Assembly (NCBI GenBank): GCA_017640785.1 | Contig: JAEPPZ010000010.1 | Location: 107,931 to 171,930 of the forward strand | DNA: 64,000 nt | Reading direction: 5' to 3' | Source: Balneola sp. | GTDB taxonomy: Bacteria > Bacteroidota > Rhodothermia > Balneolales > Balneolaceae | The notes under the pieces: model-generated | What the model was told of the DNA's origin: nothing | The model's input: only the letters and a program-made list of their open reading frames with translations | The model's database searches: none | Translations under genes and position numbers: made by a program | Shown: piece after piece, positions 23,369 through 30,063 of the stretch | How positions within the stretch are numbered: position 1 is the stretch's first letter | Layout of the letters: each line of letters starts with the position of its first letter

Positions 23369-23400
23369 AAAGCCCTGCTCGAAAAAGTAAGGGCTTTTTT
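23369..23400 (+). terminator. secG terminator
   Basis: Arms AAAGCCCT (23369-23376) and AGGGCTTT (23390-23397) with a 13-base loop, followed by T residues. It ends exactly where the displaced mnmE stop codon begins, which shows that secG and mnmE were convergent neighbours before the element came in. Confidence 0.88.
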
Positions 23401-23417
23401 TATTTCCCGATACAAAA
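23400..23417 (-). pseudogene. Displaced 3' end of mnmE / attL of the element
   Basis: On the minus strand this reads TTT TGT ATC GGG AAA TAA, that is Phe-Cys-Ile-Gly-Lys-stop. MnmE proteins universally end in (F)C(I)GK because the C-terminal Cys is part of the active site. The resident mnmE 6.6 kb away already ends this way, so this orphan end is the pre-insertion gene terminus. The shared core with the other end is CCGATACAAAA (11 bases, plus strand). Confidence 0.88.
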
Positions 23418-23840
23418 AGTAAAGTAATTTACATAAGTACATATAAATCATATTTATACAATGCAGTAATGATGGGTAAAATCTACAATTAGCAACAATT
23501 ATCAATAAAGTTGCTTGTTTTTCAGAGGATCTGACTCTACCAAATTGTTAAAATCCCAATCTGTAAGAAAAGAGAATTTACTCTCATATTTGAGAGCATA
23601 GTAACTAAATGTGAAAGCGGATACTAGCATTGACCTACTCTTTGAGAGCTTAAGTTAAGAGGCAGTATTAAGTAGCTAGCTCAATATATTTATTACTCTC
23701 AATTGTGAAACAAGCTACTCAAATTTTATCATACTCAATCAAATCAGAAAGCAGGGTTCTATTTAGGATTGATATGAAAGGTAACCCCCTTGTATAAATC
23801 AGTCTCAGATCCTTTCACATTAAGACTATTGCTTTCATAT
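23418..23840. other. Left intergenic region of the element
   Basis: About 420 AT-rich bases with no gene that I can support in any frame. It holds short motifs that could be recombinase arm sites or an origin (for example AGTAGCTAGCT near 23670, which shares AAGTAGCT or AGTAGCT with the right end near 29994), but none is long enough to be convincing. Nothing else is evident. Confidence 0.5.
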
Positions 23841-24437
23841 TCATTTATAAAGCTCATGTTTAAAAGTGCTTAATGCTTGGTCATGATTTTTCTCATTATA
23901 TTCAAGCTTTCTAAGAATCCTCTTATATCTCTTTGTAGGTTTGCCAGCATAGTGAGTCTTAAAGTGTTTACTGTATAGCTCTTCATATAACTTATCAGAG
24001 CCATGTAAGACCTTGCATACCTTATCAATCATTCTTCCATACTTAGAGTAAGTCTGAGTCTCATACATAGCATTAGGATAAGCATCTCTATGTAGAAAGT
24101 ATTTACCAGCATTGTATAGCTTTCTGCATCTCTTACCAGTCTGAGGACAAACAAAATACCAGATCTTTCCCTTACCTAGATTTGAGTTAATAGATGTTAG
24201 TTCAATTTTGTAATTAATCTCCACATCTTTGTTATAAGTGTAACTGAACTCAGTGTAAGGAGCATCAATTAGGTTAACTGTTAGGTTTATGCTTCCAATT
24301 TCTTGACCGTTTCTGCTCCAAAATAATCTACCTGATCTAAAGCTATCTGGCTCCATATATCCAAACTCCTTTAGCTTAGTAATAGAGACTTGCTTGACCT
24401 CATCAAATAGTGTTGGAAAAGTATACTGTTTTGGCAT
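23841..24437 (-). CDS. Element protein, unknown (Cys-containing)
   Basis: A 198-residue protein whose core has a zinc-ribbon-like fragment (WYFVCPQTGKRCRKLY) followed by a basic helical tail rich in Lys and Arg (KPTKRYKRILRKLEYNEKN). No signal peptide or membrane helix. It reads as a nucleic-acid-binding accessory protein of the element, but I do not recognise the family. Transcribed away from the neighbouring 293-residue gene, from a shared ~165-bp region. Confidence 0.65.
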   Translation of the reverse strand: MPKQYTFPTLFDEVKQVSITKLKEFGYMEPDSFRSGRLFWSRNGQEIGSINLTVNLIDAPYTEFSYTYNKDVEINYKIELTSINSNLGKGKIWYFVCPQTGKRCRKLYNAGKYFLHRDAYPNAMYETQTYSKYGRMIDKVCKVLHGSDKLYEELYSKHFKTHYAGKPTKRYKRILRKLEYNEKNHDQALSTFKHELYK

Positions 24438-24457
24438 TTGATTAGACTTGATAAAAA

Positions 24458-24469
24458 TTGATTAATCAA
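24458..24469. promoter_or_regulatory. Palindrome TTGATTAATCAA, candidate operator
   Basis: A perfect 12-bp palindrome 20 bases upstream of the ATG of the leftward 198-residue gene and within the divergent promoter region. The surrounding TTGATTAG and TTGATAAAAATTG are partial copies, which suggests a regulator-binding cluster. AT-richness makes a chance match possible. Confidence 0.4.
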
Positions 24470-24601
24470 AATTGAAACCTAAATTATTAGAGAATTTTGT
24501 TCAGGTTTTTTGAATCAAATTACAAGATTGCCCATTCACTAATATAATATTGCAAATAAATTCATTATAATTTAGCTTAAATAATTGAAATAAATAAAAG
24601 T

Positions 24602-25483
24602 ATGCCAAGTCAGGAAAAATTAAAAATTAAGTTTGGGGGAAAAGCTAATACTGTTAATGCTACAACATATCTTAATAGTCTTTCAAGCTTTGTTACAATC
24701 GCAGAAGAGGTCAATAAAAATCTAAATAATCAGGAGAAGATATCTATAAACATTCAAGCACATAAACCAGGGAGTTTTGAGGTTTTTCTTGAGCTTGTTA
24801 CATCTGCTTATGACACTGTAGATGTGATGTTTAATACTGGGGTTACTAATGCTGGAGATTTGTTTAAGATTATAACAGGAGTTTATACTGTTAGGAAATT
24901 CTTGTCTGGGAAAAAGCCAAAGAAAATTGATGAGGTTGAAGCAGGCATAAATATTACTAATAGCAAAGGAAATACTATAACTGTAAATAAAAATACTTAC
25001 AATATCTATAATTCCAATTTTTCAGTTATAGAGGCACTCAATAATAACTTTGAATCTCTAAATAATGACTCTTCTGTTGATAGTTTTGAAATATATGAAA
25101 AGGGAAACAAACCAGTATTTAAAAGTGATAAAAGTGACTTTGGATTCCTTACAGATCAAGAGTTAGAGGAAATTCAAGCTGATGAAAAGTATGTAACAAC
25201 AAGACATTCAATTCGAGTCTTCAAAGTAGTTTTTGAAAAGAAATATACTTGGCAGTTTATTCATAAAGGGGAAAAAATAAACGCTAAAATATTAGATGAA
25301 AAATTTTTAAAAGGAATAGAATCAGGTACTGAGCGGTTCGGTAAAGGGGATATTCTGGAAGTAGAATTAGAAGTTCTTAAAAAATATGATGAAAGTTTGG
25401 GTGCATTTATTAATTCAAAGTACAGTGTTAAAAAAGTTTTCAATCATATTCCAAGATCAAGTCAAGGAGAACTAAACCTTTAA
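24602..25483 (+). CDS. Element cargo protein, unknown
   Basis: A 293-residue soluble protein, the only rightward gene of the element. The N-terminal ~120 residues look folded alpha/beta (LKIKFGGKANTVNATTYLNS; ISINIQAHKPGSFEVFLEL) with a short hydrophobic stretch (TNAGDLFKIITGVYTVRKFL). After it comes a Thr/Asn-rich beta segment (NITNSKGNTITVNKNTYNIY) and a C-terminal beta domain (VFKVVFEKKYTWQFIHKGEKI). No catalytic motif recognised. Position and opposite orientation suggest cargo, possibly defence or stress related, but this is a guess. Confidence 0.65.
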   Translation: MPSQEKLKIKFGGKANTVNATTYLNSLSSFVTIAEEVNKNLNNQEKISINIQAHKPGSFEVFLELVTSAYDTVDVMFNTGVTNAGDLFKIITGVYTVRKFLSGKKPKKIDEVEAGINITNSKGNTITVNKNTYNIYNSNFSVIEALNNNFESLNNDSSVDSFEIYEKGNKPVFKSDKSDFGFLTDQELEEIQADEKYVTTRHSIRVFKVVFEKKYTWQFIHKGEKINAKILDEKFLKGIESGTERFGKGDILEVELEVLKKYDESLGAFINSKYSVKKVFNHIPRSSQGELNL

Positions 25484-25489
25484 AGAAAT

Positions 25490-25515
25490 TTACCGTTATC
25501 TATCGGTAATATTTT
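25490..25515. terminator. Terminator between convergent element genes
   Basis: TTACCG (25490-25495) and CGGTAA (25504-25509) with an 8-base loop and a run of seven T residues on the plus strand. It ends the 293-residue cargo transcript and overlaps the last codons of the leftward replication gene. Confidence 0.75.
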
Positions 25516-26429
25516 TTTAGTGCTGAAACTTTACTATCAAGCTCCTTAATAATTGGAGTAGAGTCTGAGATTGAGAACTCCTTGCTCTTGTCTCTAATCT
25601 GTTTCTTGAGTTTGCTGTAATATTCAGGTCTATCAAATACTTGTTTTGCTCTTAGCTCCTCTACTAGATCCACTGCTCCAGCCTGACCGATATTATCAAT
25701 CATGAGGAGAGCCATCTGATCCCAAAAGTCTTTTGGTGTTTTCATATTATCTGTATCTAAGCAGATTTGTGCATTCTTATGTATTGATTTAAAATCACTT
25801 ACATATCTATCTATCAATTTAATATAAAACTGCTCATCATACAATTTAGAAGCTTTTATTACTGGCTCTTTGAACTGTTTACTTAGTCTCCGCTTGTAGC
25901 TTATTTCATATCTTAGGATATGCTTGTCAATCCATACCTCAGGAACTAGCAATCTTTTAGATTTAGCTTCTAACAGCTTGTTGTAGAATAGTAGAGTCCT
26001 ACTCTTGTTTTTATAATAGAGGCTATTAGGTTGAGTATATCGCTTAAAATATTGGCATTCTCCTAAGTACTGGAAGTATGTTTCAGGATTATATTTCATA
26101 ATGAAATTTTGAGCAAAATCTACTCTGGAGACTTGAGCTTCTTTTATAGGTAAATGCAATTCATCTGAAAGCCGTTGAATGGCTTGCTCAGTATCTTGTC
26201 TCCTTAGAGTTTGCATATTATCAGACAGGTAATATTTAGCTAAACTGCCTTGTATAGAGACCCCTCTATCAGACACATAAATTCTTAGGTTTTCTTTAGT
26301 ACCTGAGAAGTATATCTGATCTGCTTTCTCATGTGCTGTAATGTCCTCTAAATAAACAGGAACCTCAGCCAGTAGATCAATGTCTCTGACTGAGTCCTGT
26401 CTTACATAGAGTTTAATTGTATCAAACAT
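25500..26429 (-). CDS. Rolling-circle replication initiator, gene II/X family
   Basis: A 309-residue protein resembling filamentous-phage gene II/X-type and related plasmid replication initiators. Family features are VSRVDFAQNFIMKYNPETYF (101-120), a LLFYNKLLEAKSK segment (146-158) and the ILRYEISYKRR motif (171-181), followed by an alpha-helical C-terminal half. The catalytic Tyr cannot be assigned from sequence alone. It would nick a double-strand origin and allow the excised element to replicate or transfer. Its ATG is three bases from a 17-bp palindrome that may regulate it or serve as its site. Next gene upstream is 22 bp away, so they are co-transcribed. Confidence 0.8.
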   Translation of the reverse strand: MFDTIKLYVRQDSVRDIDLLAEVPVYLEDITAHEKADQIYFSGTKENLRIYVSDRGVSIQGSLAKYYLSDNMQTLRRQDTEQAIQRLSDELHLPIKEAQVSRVDFAQNFIMKYNPETYFQYLGECQYFKRYTQPNSLYYKNKSRTLLFYNKLLEAKSKRLLVPEVWIDKHILRYEISYKRRLSKQFKEPVIKASKLYDEQFYIKLIDRYVSDFKSIHKNAQICLDTDNMKTPKDFWDQMALLMIDNIGQAGAVDLVEELRAKQVFDRPEYYSKLKKQIRDKSKEFSISDSTPIIKELDSKVSALKKYYR

Positions 26430-26431
26430 AA

Positions 26432-26448
26432 TTGACAGAATTTGTCAA
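26432..26448. promoter_or_regulatory. Inverted repeat TTGACA-N5-TGTCAA before the replication gene
   Basis: Perfect 6-bp arms around GAATT, ending three bases upstream of the rep ATG. The position overlaps the ribosome-binding region. It could be an operator for Rep or the HTH protein, or an mRNA hairpin that limits Rep translation. Confidence 0.45.
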
Positions 26449-26451
26449 CAC

Positions 26452-27015
26452 TTACAGCTTACTATAGCCATAGTCATAAAATGGCTTACAGTCTGCTCTC
26501 AGTTGTTTGATTTCTTGATCTAACTCTCCATCAATAAAATCCTGATACCAACTTCTAATTAGGTTGACTTGATCAGGCAAGATTAGCATTTCTAGCTCAG
26601 TTAAATCTTTATTAGCCCTGAATAAATATCCATCATACCTGTAGTTGAAAAATGGGTTCTCAGCTCCATTGCCTAACCTAATTGCATTATGAGGGTTGCC
26701 ATAGTAAAGCTCAGGATATTCAATATGCTCATTAAACAAACTTGTTAAATTAATTGAACATTTAGCTTGTCTCGATCTACCTGTGAGACTCCAGTCTGTT
26801 ATTCTCCTCACATCTGTATTTATAATCTCATTTGCTCTAACCTTGTTGAGATATATCATTCCTTTGTGATTCTTAAGAGAATCCAGACCTCTATGATCAC
26901 CTGAGCCATTAGAAAACTGAATACAGTCAAGCCTTTTGTCTGTTCTAATGCCATTAGCTTTTCTAATATCAATTGGCAGTGTTTTGAAATGATAATAATA
27001 GATAGGCTGATTCAT
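26452..27015 (-). CDS. Element protein, unknown
   Basis: A 187-residue soluble protein without a recognised domain. It is rich in Asn, Tyr and Arg (IDIRKANGIRTDKRLDCIQF; SLTGRSRQAKCSINLTSLFN) and ends KPFYDYGYSKL. Its start overlaps the stop of the HTH gene by four bases (ATGA), and the rep gene follows, so it is inside the replication operon and probably assists replication or its control. Confidence 0.65.
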   Translation of the reverse strand: MNQPIYYYHFKTLPIDIRKANGIRTDKRLDCIQFSNGSGDHRGLDSLKNHKGMIYLNKVRANEIINTDVRRITDWSLTGRSRQAKCSINLTSLFNEHIEYPELYYGNPHNAIRLGNGAENPFFNYRYDGYLFRANKDLTELEMLILPDQVNLIRSWYQDFIDGELDQEIKQLRADCKPFYDYGYSKL

Positions 27016-27299
27016 GATAAACCTCTCTCGATTAAGAAGTTTTCAGCCTTATCATCAATTTCATCCTGAGATAGTTTTTTGTTTCTCAGCATCCATTCAT
27101 CAAGCTCCTCTTTGTCAAAGTATAGCTTCTTACCTGTAGGTTTATAGCAAGGTATGCCACCTGTAGAGGTAAGTTTATATAGATGTGATTTGCTCAGTCC
27201 AGTATAGACTGCTGTCTCATCAAAGTTTAATACTGTCTTTTGACTCAGGAGCATATTCTCAATCCTACTGAGTCTCTCATCAAGTTCTGTAGTTTTCAT
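27012..27299 (-). CDS. AlpA/excisionase-like helix-turn-helix protein
   Basis: A 95-residue DNA-binding protein. Residues ~24-75 match the HTH_17/AlpA family (LNFDETAVYTGLSKSHLYKL then TSTGGIPCYKPTGKKLYFDK plus EELDEWML). In Bacteroidota elements such proteins act as excisionases or regulators beside the recombinase. Downstream genes overlap it by four bases. A complex palindrome lies two bases upstream of its start and is a likely self-binding site. Confidence 0.85.
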   Translation of the reverse strand: MKTTELDERLSRIENMLLSQKTVLNFDETAVYTGLSKSHLYKLTSTGGIPCYKPTGKKLYFDKEELDEWMLRNKKLSQDEIDDKAENFLIERGLS

Positions 27300-27300
27300 T

Positions 27301-27339
27301 GGTTCAATTGTTTTGAATTAAAATTGAACCGGCGCCGGT
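27301..27339. promoter_or_regulatory. Composite palindrome upstream of the HTH gene
   Basis: GGTTCAATT (27301-27309) and AATTGAACC (27322-27330) form perfect 9-bp arms; joined to them is the perfect palindrome ACCGGCGCCGGT (27328-27339), very GC-rich inside an AT-rich element. Candidate operator of the HTH protein, or the nick hairpin of the rolling-circle initiator. Confidence 0.5.
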
Positions 27340-27412
27340 ACTATTTATGTAATTACAGACCTAAGATGAGAAAGGATTGAAAGGATGAGAAAGGTTGTTA
27401 ATTGAGTCTTAA

Positions 27413-28768
27413 TTAACTCTTAAGTTTACTTATAATAGATAATATAGTATGTATAGTTTTGTTTGACTTTTCTTTTTGAATCTGTGAAAGCTGGCTTGCA
27501 AGACTTTTAGGTTTTAATGGTTCTCCCTTACTGCTTATAAAATGAGAGGCAGTTAACTCATGCTTTTTGCCTTTAATATTGATGATAAACTCCTCCGCTA
27601 ATGAATGCATCAGATAGGCTAAATATTTACTCTCTATGAGCCATTTAATTGAATGAGGTTCCTTTATTGGAGCCTGACCATCTACAAAGAAATGCTCCTG
27701 AATGATCTCTTCAGTGTTTTTTTTCTCAATTAAACCCTCTCTTTTTATAATGTCTAAAAAATGCTTGAGATTCTCCTTTCCTTTAAGCCAATGGATAGGT
27801 TTGATATAGTTTTCTAAACTCTTTTGTTTTGAGGTTGAATTATCAAATTTTGAATGAAACTCAGGTCTTAATTCAGCAGAAGTATGTTCTACTTTAAGCT
27901 GAATAAGTAAATTCCTCAAGCGATATAATGAATAAAATTCAAATCCATAAGGATCCATTAGTTTACCAATATTAACGGTCTTTTTGATCCTTTCATCCAT
28001 TTTTTTCTTAAAATCTAATCGCTGTTTTCTTTGTTCCTTAGTAAGCGGTTCTGTTTTTTGTATGATTCTTTCAGGTTTGAAATAATCACTGACTCCCATT
28101 CCTCCTTGATTACCTCCTCCCATCATGGGTATTTCTTTACCAGCCTTTTCATATTCTTCTATTTTGTTCTCAATTTCTTCAGGAGTAAAATCCCCTTCCC
28201 AAAACTCCATTTTCCAAAAGAAGTAATAATCATAATCATTACAGAGTAGGTCTATTTTTTTTGAATCAAAATTATCAGTTAGTTCTTGAACTCTTGTATA
28301 GATTTCTAAATCTGACATTCCTCCAGAATGAACATCATTAAAAAACAAATTTGAAATTCCTTCTTTAAAACTAGATTCAACTGATTCCCCTACAGTAACT
28401 TTATCACTTTTAAGATAATCGATTCTCTCTATATATGAGATTATAAGATCAATGAACTTGAAAATTGAATGCATTTGATATTCACTCAAATCAGCGTCTT
28501 GATAATAAGTTTGTATGACATAGTAGATCCGATAGTTCTCATCTTCTTCATTTTCATAAAGTTCTATAAGAGATGTATCTGACTTTCTTTTTTCTAAAAT
28601 CTTGTTAACATAATCTTGTAAATACCATGAAAAATCTGTTGCTAGATTAACCAGTAGGGCTCTTGTAACCCCATTTTCTTTGCTACCAAGTTCCTCGATG
28701 GCATCAATGATATCTAATCTTGGTAGTTTATTTTTTAAAACTCCATCAAATAATTCAGCTACTTTCAT
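27413..28768 (-). CDS. Large element protein, unknown
   Basis: A 451-residue soluble protein with long acidic and helical regions (YENEEDENYRIYYVIQTYYQ; EEIENKIEEYEKAGKEIPMM), a Gly-rich GGGNQGGMGVSDYF patch in the middle and a basic C-terminus (KPLKPKSLASQLSQI-like, FISSKGEPLKPKSLASQLSQ). No known domain seen. Its start overlaps the recombinase stop by four bases, so the two are translationally coupled. Position between the recombinase and the HTH protein is like orf2 of NBU-type elements, without proof of relation. Confidence 0.7.
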   Translation of the reverse strand: MKVAELFDGVLKNKLPRLDIIDAIEELGSKENGVTRALLVNLATDFSWYLQDYVNKILEKRKSDTSLIELYENEEDENYRIYYVIQTYYQDADLSEYQMHSIFKFIDLIISYIERIDYLKSDKVTVGESVESSFKEGISNLFFNDVHSGGMSDLEIYTRVQELTDNFDSKKIDLLCNDYDYYFFWKMEFWEGDFTPEEIENKIEEYEKAGKEIPMMGGGNQGGMGVSDYFKPERIIQKTEPLTKEQRKQRLDFKKKMDERIKKTVNIGKLMDPYGFEFYSLYRLRNLLIQLKVEHTSAELRPEFHSKFDNSTSKQKSLENYIKPIHWLKGKENLKHFLDIIKREGLIEKKNTEEIIQEHFFVDGQAPIKEPHSIKWLIESKYLAYLMHSLAEEFIINIKGKKHELTASHFISSKGEPLKPKSLASQLSQIQKEKSNKTIHTILSIISKLKS

Positions 28769-29895
28769 AATTCAATTTGGTTTAATCGATTGACAGCCTC
28801 TTTTCTCTTTTGATCTACAATATCAGCATAGATCTGAGTAGTCTTTAGGTTCTTATGTCCTAAAAGCTTACTAACAGTATAAATATCTGCTCCATATTGT
28901 AGCTGTAATATAGCATAAGTATGTCTAGCACAATGGAATGTGATATTCTTTGTAATACCAGCTTTCATCATCCACTTTTGAAGTGCTACATTCAAGTAAG
29001 TAGAATATTTCAAACCTTTAAAAGCTCTGATTTCAGGTGCTTTAGGGTTTCCTAAATATTGTTTAGCATTATCAGGTATTTCAACATATTGTAAACCACT
29101 TGTTTTCTTTTGGTGAAAGACTACTCTCCAGCCATCATCATTCATTTCAATTTCATCCCAAATAAGTTTTTGGCAATCAGACCATCTAAGACCTGTAAGG
29201 CAAGCAAACATAAAGGCATTTTTCAGAACAGGATATCTGCATTCAGCTTTAGATACTTCTTTCAACTCCTCTACAGTTAAATGTTGCCTCTTTGGAGTTT
29301 TAATAGTTGGTGCTTCAATATCATCTGCTGGATTAAATGATAAGTATCTTTTTTTAACCGCTTTTCTTAAACCGGCTCTGAACTTGCTGAAGTAAGTTGC
29401 TATTGTAGAAGTGGATAATGGATTTCCATCACTCTTTTCTACATTCTTTAAATATTCCAGAAAACCTTTACATAGATTTTTATCTATCCTTTTAAAGGAT
29501 TGTGTTTCAGATCCAATAAAAGACTCTAAATGTTTATATGTAGAATCCCAAGTATTGAAGGTACTTTCATTATTACTTTTCTCATCTCTTTGCTGTCTAA
29601 AAAAAGCCATAAAATCAGCATTACTACTACCTGATCTTTTAAATCCATACTGTCCATTTTTGATCTCCAGCTCTCTTTTTGCTCTTATGCTTTTAGCAAG
29701 CTCCAAAGTATCATTATTTATCTGTCTCTCTTGCTTAGTCTGAGGATTATCTTTTAAATACAGCTCCAGATACTCATAATCTCTGACTGCCTTTGTTTTG
29801 CCATCCTCAGCTTTGACAGTACCTTTATAGTACTCCAGATAAAGGCTAATCTTACCTGACTTAGTCTGTTTTCTCTGTCTTAAATGTACCTTCAT
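28765..29895 (-). CDS. Tyrosine recombinase (integrase)
   Basis: Phage-integrase-family site-specific recombinase of Bacteroidota type. The start at 29895 (MKVHLRQRKQTKSGKISLYL) is preferred; 13 more upstream residues are possible. An arm-binding/SAM-like core-binding half is followed by the catalytic domain with Arg (CLTGLRWSDC), Lys (VVFHQKKTSG), HxxR (FHCARHTYA), His (LLGHKNL) and the nucleophile Tyr (TTQIYADI). All catalytic residues are present, so it should be active. It lies next to attR and would catalyse recombination at the mnmE 3' end. Confidence 0.93.
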   Translation of the reverse strand: MKVHLRQRKQTKSGKISLYLEYYKGTVKAEDGKTKAVRDYEYLELYLKDNPQTKQERQINNDTLELAKSIRAKRELEIKNGQYGFKRSGSSNADFMAFFRQQRDEKSNNESTFNTWDSTYKHLESFIGSETQSFKRIDKNLCKGFLEYLKNVEKSDGNPLSTSTIATYFSKFRAGLRKAVKKRYLSFNPADDIEAPTIKTPKRQHLTVEELKEVSKAECRYPVLKNAFMFACLTGLRWSDCQKLIWDEIEMNDDGWRVVFHQKKTSGLQYVEIPDNAKQYLGNPKAPEIRAFKGLKYSTYLNVALQKWMMKAGITKNITFHCARHTYAILQLQYGADIYTVSKLLGHKNLKTTQIYADIVDQKRKEAVNRLNQIEL

Positions 29896-30045
29896 ATTGT
29901 TGCTATTTGTTGTTATCAAATCTCTATAGAACAAATTAACAACAATAAAACCACAAATAACAACAAAAGATTAGAAAATATACTACCTTAAAAAGTAGCT
30001 AAATGAAAGCATTAGATGAGTTTAGCTAATCAAAAGAAAAGTACT

Positions 30046-30063
30046 TCACTTTCCGATACAAAA
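30046..30063. other. attR, element-mnmE junction
   Basis: The plus strand TCACTTTCCGATACAAAA carries the stop and CIGK codons of the resident mnmE. The core CCGATACAAAA is shared with attL; three silent or stop differences (AAG TGA here, AAA TAA there, GGA against GGG) mark the two gene ends as different in origin. Confidence 0.82.

Follow-up and report, generated by a model that had tools for sequence, protein, structure and literature searches.

The DNA analysed here, referred to as the window, is a stretch of 64,000 nucleotides from a Balneola sp. genome (GenBank assembly GCA_017640785.1, contig JAEPPZ010000010.1) that carries a 6,646-bp element (23407–30052, core copy to core copy) at the 3′ end of mnmE, a universal tRNA-modification gene. 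The last 18 nucleotides of mnmE, encoding FCIGK and a stop codon, are present twice on the minus strand: at 23400–23417 (TTTTGTATCGGGAAATAA), adjoining the secG terminator (23369–23401), and at 30046–30063 (TTTTGTATCGGAAAGTGA), inside the resident mnmE gene. An 11-bp core, CCGATACAAAA, is found exactly at 23407–23417 (attL) and 30053–30063 (attR) and nowhere else in the window; with up to one mismatch, six matches were obtained against 1.46 expected, a number reached in 0 of 100 shuffles. The 14-mer TTYCCGATACAAAA has exactly two exact matches in the 3.39-Mb genome, and these are the two mnmE ends. The GC content is 32.2% within the element and 38.2% in its flanks. The genome holds a single copy, and the element is present in one of the eight genomes of the genus. 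Both gene ends had been located by the original prediction, a reading of the sequence alone, and were confirmed as direct repeats on the strand of mnmE.

The corresponding site is empty in four other genomes of the genus (G007, G004, G001 and G005; loci L007, L008, L009 and L012), in which mnmE ends with GGN AAA TAA (AAAAAGCCC) and is followed directly by the secG terminator. The window attB was reconstructed by joining the element flanks and was aligned with these loci; over the full junction, 118/131, 117/131 and 114/132 identities were obtained with the three closest empty sites, and the fourth was matched more weakly. The displaced window end is matched by GGGAAATAA in the empty sites L008 and L009. 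The four empty sites establish the displaced copy as the original 3′ end of mnmE and the resident one, GGA AAG TGA, as that brought by the 6,646-bp element, which agrees with the earlier proposal that one gene end was incoming. At the level of sequence, the direct repeats, which regenerate the gene end, and the empty site in relatives demonstrate site-specific integration within the FCIGK-stop codons, by which the native gene end is substituted by that of the element and the C terminus of MnmE is left unchanged. The terminator, common to mnmE and secG in the empty sites, is separated from mnmE by the insertion. The original prediction had proposed looking for a site at which mnmE is joined directly to secG and had also counted such a site as a refutation; the first proposal succeeded in all four genomes, and the second has to be inverted, as empty sites support integration.

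The element contains seven genes, six of which (int, orf451, xis, orf187, rep and orf198, all on the minus strand) form a conserved backbone, while the cargo varies between elements. The integrase, a tyrosine recombinase of 376 amino acids from its ATG (28765–29895; reading frame open to 29934), matched PF17293 (Arm-DNA-bind_5), PF13102 (Phage_int_SAM_5) and PF00589 (Phage_integrase), and the catalytic residues R, K, H, R, H and Y are conserved in an alignment with relatives. Judged from these domains and residues, with arm-binding, SAM-like core-binding and catalytic parts all present, it is of the IntCTnDOT type. The putative Xis (95 amino acids, 27012–27299) is a helix-turn-helix (HTH) protein of the HTH_17/excisionase type (PF12728, 8e-13; TIGR01764, 4e-11). 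The replication initiator Rep (309 amino acids, 25500–26429) belongs to the Phage_CRI (G2P-type) family (PF05144, 1.7e-15; 57.8 bits against a cut-off of 21.7); the same family was matched by 7 of 10 aligned Rep relatives, and the motifs FYxK and RxE are among the positions invariant over all ten. The gene content named by the original prediction was thereby upheld, namely a tyrosine recombinase, an HTH protein and a gene II/X-family initiator; AlpA, to which it had likened the HTH protein, was matched only under the cut-off of that family.

No significant family match was obtained for orf451 (27413–28768), orf187 (26452–27015) or orf198 (23841–24437) in family searches that included Pfam, PADLOC and NCBIfam. 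The first lies between int and xis, also in sister elements, and distant relatives occupy the same position in L069, L110 and L112; the second lies between xis and rep, and a relative of 27% identity was found at the same position in L065. A distant relationship of orf451 to DUF6617 was considered and was not supported by profile comparison. A DUF6617 (PF20322) protein fills the int–xis gap, the place of orf451, in L098 (2473–3534), with no clear homology to orf451. Structures predicted from two-sequence alignments were too poor to use (mean predicted local distance difference test score of 35.5 for Rep and 43.3 for orf451).

The seventh gene (24602–25483, plus strand) encodes a protein of 293 amino acids of the PDC-S42 defence candidate/LAPAL family; the PADLOC model was matched along its length (1.8e-38, residues 3–292), as was NCBIfam NF053583 (4e-53). 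It was found in none of the other searched genomes of the family. Homologues are present in Lactobacillus phage A2, between lysin and integrase (L137, 4001–4903), and in a small tailless Vibrio phage (L138, 11496–12350), and a role in lysogeny or as cargo would fit these occurrences. The opposite-strand gene is probably exchangeable cargo with an anti-phage function.

A sister element of 5,841 bp is integrated at the mnmE end of Gracilimonas mengyeensis DSM 21985 (G041; NZ_FXTP01000012.1, L041 11403–17254, the same record as L050). The displaced FCIGK-stop sequence TTTTGTATTGGGAAATAA lies at its far end, 5,841 bp away, and the gene order is that of the window, with a 151-amino-acid open reading frame (ORF) in place of the S42 gene. 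The proteins of window and sister are identical at 83% (Int), 49% (orf451), 96% (Xis), 55% (orf187), 80% (Rep) and 73% (orf198) of positions; the DNA identities are 90% over the 118-bp attR–int interval, 86% for xis, 82% for int, 81% for rep and only 64–66% for orf451 and orf187, so that conservation is concentrated in the parts for recombination and replication. At the mnmE gene of a distantly related member of Bacteroidota (L066) lies a third element whose genes follow this order. The combination of genes, which had been described as unfamiliar, is therefore not unique to the window. Elsewhere in the family, secG and mnmE lie 2–7 kb apart in the genomes L042, L047, L048 and L049; these intervals contained neither a relative of the integrase nor a displaced core beside secG.

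The attachment sites were examined further on circles reconstructed by joining both ends of each element. The predicted attP of the window element, that is, its circle junction, is ACTTTACTTTTTGTATCGGAAAGTGAAGT. It contains an 11-bp spacer, TTTGTATCGGA, between the imperfect 9-bp inverted repeats ACTTTACTT and AAGTGAAGT; the circle of the G. mengyeensis element has the 11-bp spacer TTTGTATTGGT between imperfect 9-bp repeats ACCTCACTT and AAGTGAAGT. In the window, one half lies beside the core at 23417–23425 (AAGTAAAGT) and the other at 30043–30051 (ACTTCACTT; AAGTGAAGT on the mnmE strand, corresponding to the Lys-stop-Ser codons). Such inverted repeats around a spacer resemble the core-type sites of tyrosine recombinases. 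Putative arm-type sites, paired TTGTTGCT/TTGTTGTT and AACAACAA motifs forming inverted repeats, were identified just upstream of int (29897–29967), within the 118 bp that separate attR from int and are 89.8% identical to those of the sister. These paired TTGTTGYT/ARCAACAA motifs have the appearance of arm-type sites, and similar motifs also precede int in several distant relatives. A direct repeat near the left end, ACAATTAGCA/ACAATTATCA (23485–23504), is a weak candidate for further arm-type sites.

Use of the mnmE tail by related integrases was assessed from chromosomal position or, in viral contigs, from the attP sequence. A search of 394 Bacteroidota genomes (E ≤ 1e-62) gave 25 integrase matches; 17 of them, from seven families, are immediately 3′ of mnmE and share its strand. 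Within the class of the window organism, an integrase at this site was found at the same threshold in only 2 of 245 genomes; a third match, L038, is not beside mnmE. A search of IMG/VR viral contigs with the window integrase alone gave no matches, and matches were obtained with an alignment of three integrases. The exact FCIGK-stop sequence was present upstream of int in contigs L117 (678), L118 (5333), L126 (7770) and L122 (4214); since the sequence ahead of it is not mnmE, these junctions would be the expected attP of a free form. Contigs L119 and L121 hold mnmE's own end.

In a tree of 41 integrases, one branch (support 98/96) comprises 33 rows, of which 24 use the mnmE tail (L124 with one mismatch), eight use another site or one that was not identified, and one lies on a contig that is too short; none of the eight rows outside this branch uses the tail. 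The sampling began from the window integrase, and these counts give no estimate of the overall frequency of the mnmE site. Among the exceptions, four close relatives in one family (L075–L078) lie beside the 5′ end of another gene, so that the expectation of a recombinase always found at the mnmE end did not hold. L109–L112 contain integrases about 50% identical to that of the window; these adjoin an exo/endonuclease/phosphatase-like gene (C terminus GGYSDHLPLLL) at its 5′ end, which is read as a target switch within the lineage.

Different replication genes accompany the lineage integrase: a Phage_CRI module in the window, in G. mengyeensis and in L066; BT4734-like, DUF3987 and PriCT_2 genes in L098 and L100; and VapE-like or DUF5906 genes with a Toprim/Zn-ribbon primase in L101 and L102. 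Replication modules are swapped within a single integrase lineage of Bacteroidota that targets the mnmE tail, and the window integrase belongs to this lineage. For the larger relatives, no far end was found within about 18 kb; further out, the mnmE tail recurs on the same strand, at a distance of 30.8 kb in G155 and of 21.4 kb in G346, and possibly at 66 kb in G376. On a short contig of a Bacteroidales metagenome-assembled genome (L051), a rep up to 72% identical to that of the window lies beside an integrase of only 26% identity, a pairing that points to module exchange.

The explanation strongly favoured here is that of a small integrative element that encodes an initiator of the rolling-circle type. 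The tyrosine recombinase, which has an arm-binding domain, would recombine attP of the circle with attB in the FCIGK codons; Int and the HTH protein, as excision factor, would excise the circle, and Rep would replicate it by a rolling-circle mechanism. In the integrated state, read-through from mnmE may express int, because mnmE then lacks the terminator that it otherwise shares with secG and is closely followed by int in the same orientation. The S42 protein may protect the host against phages, and movement between cells would probably be provided by a conjugative or viral helper. Several points weigh against this explanation. Excision and circle replication are deduced from the sequence, and the roles of Xis and Rep from family matches; neither a type IV secretion system coupling protein (PF02534) nor Zot (PF05707) was found in the host genome; and mnmE is not the sole target within the integrase clade.

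A narrower version of the same explanation, to which slightly less than even confidence is given, is an integrative mobilizable element (IME) whose Rep doubles as a relaxase in the manner of MobT/Rep_Trans, with the conjugative helper in another strain. Initiators of the rolling-circle replication type act as non-canonical relaxases in streptococcal IMEs (PMC5704250), the layout is like that of small Bacteroidota elements, and the sister is found in another genus. An integration module is present, but no canonical relaxase was recognised by Pfam among the element proteins, no oriT was identified, the host has no coupling protein, and the Bacteroidetes IMEs described in PMC5704250 use canonical relaxases. 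It is improbable that the element is instead an integrated filamentous phage or satellite, with single-stranded DNA made by Rep and packaged by phage or helper proteins. Rep does belong to the inovirus G2P family, and IMG/VR contigs contain related integrases; however, the Zot-like pI ATPase and coat proteins expected of an inovirus were not recognised among the element genes, Zot is missing from the host genome as well, and Rep had no match among 50,697 phage records. A stretch of Parabacteroides distasonis (NZ_OY725790.1, L073 5775–13920) carries int, a 399-amino-acid ORF, an HTH gene and a Phage_CRI-type rep followed by nine small ORFs, an order that would suit such a phage, but the small ORFs have no significant Pfam match; this stretch is possibly an undescribed filamentous-type phage.

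That the element is an immobile relic with excision lost is a little less probable again. It would account for the single copy in the genome and for the presence in one genome of eight, but every gene is open, the integrase retains its catalytic residues and neither end is damaged. That the second FCIGK-stop arose by chance, or is a piece of a duplicated mnmE, with ordinary chromosome in between, can be practically discounted: the exact match is short (11 bp), but this reading is refuted by the four empty sites and is further opposed by the drop in GC content, the sister element and the restriction of the 14-mer to the two ends genome-wide.

Among known systems, the small integrative element favoured above shares its target with Salmonella genomic island 1 (SGI1), which integrates into the last 18 bp of mnmE (thdF; PMC2297512); other gammaproteobacterial islands use this tail too (PMC2297512, PMC5704250, PMC7449626). 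The E. coli mnmE tail, TTCTGTATTGGTAAGTAA, encodes the same FCIGK-stop. The SGI1-type islands differ in being far larger, in their mobilisation by IncA/C plasmids, in their gammaproteobacterial hosts and in Rep_3 replication (PMC5704250), as opposed to Phage_CRI. None of the seven element genes matched the SGI1 backbone (IncC-dependent mobilisation genes, Rep_3), and the element was not filed as SGI1. The dusA-targeting integrases (PMC4482086) are alike in that one lineage is dedicated to one tRNA-modification gene over many hosts, and differ in the gene, in the use of its 5′ end and in the host group.

Elements of the NBU1/CTnDOT type show a similar order of int, an ORF, an excision HTH gene, an ORF and replication or mobilisation genes; NBU1 uses a tRNA-Leu end as its site and encodes a MobP-type relaxase with a primase. 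Their tyrosine recombinase, with arm binding, is broadly of one type with that of the window element, and some mnmE-site relatives of the latter carry primase/helicase modules; unlike NBU1, the window element encodes an initiator of the Phage_CRI family, and no relaxase was recognised in it. The site use is SGI1-like and the modular layout NBU-like, and no new category is proposed. The literature searched, with subscription papers and island databases lying outside the search, gave no description of mnmE serving for attachment in Bacteroidota.

The recombinase of SGI1 has been assigned to the IntCTnDOT subgroup, alongside integrases from Bacteroidetes (PMC8138268), which makes a common origin of the two uses of the site a live possibility. 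The C-terminal FCIGK is conserved across bacteria, so that nearly every host offers a site to a single integrase lineage; this would account for the presence of the lineage in several families and alongside modules of the IME, virus and integrative and conjugative element (ICE) types. In its widest form, the proposal is that the mnmE tail is the ancient dedicated site of one integrase lineage over ICE/IME-like elements, small elements with Phage_CRI Rep and temperate viruses of Bacteroidota, and that the SGI1 integrase is a gammaproteobacterial offshoot or uses the same site by descent; this is put forward tentatively and is rather unlikely to hold. Whether the two choices of site have one origin becomes a testable question. 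The mnmE tail becomes a predictable place to seek cargo, candidate defence genes among it, and a tool for integration may be gained as well.

In chromosome-sized plasmid records, the mnmE end was unoccupied in the four that were checked. Of 5,374 E. coli genomes, about 770 did not match a query spanning mnmE–tnaC as one continuous stretch. Genomes with this split junction were considered as SGI1 carriers and rejected as such, the four that were checked (L141–L144) holding at mnmE–tnaC an unrelated gene, which its annotation assigns to a type III effector family and which is unaccompanied by an integrase.

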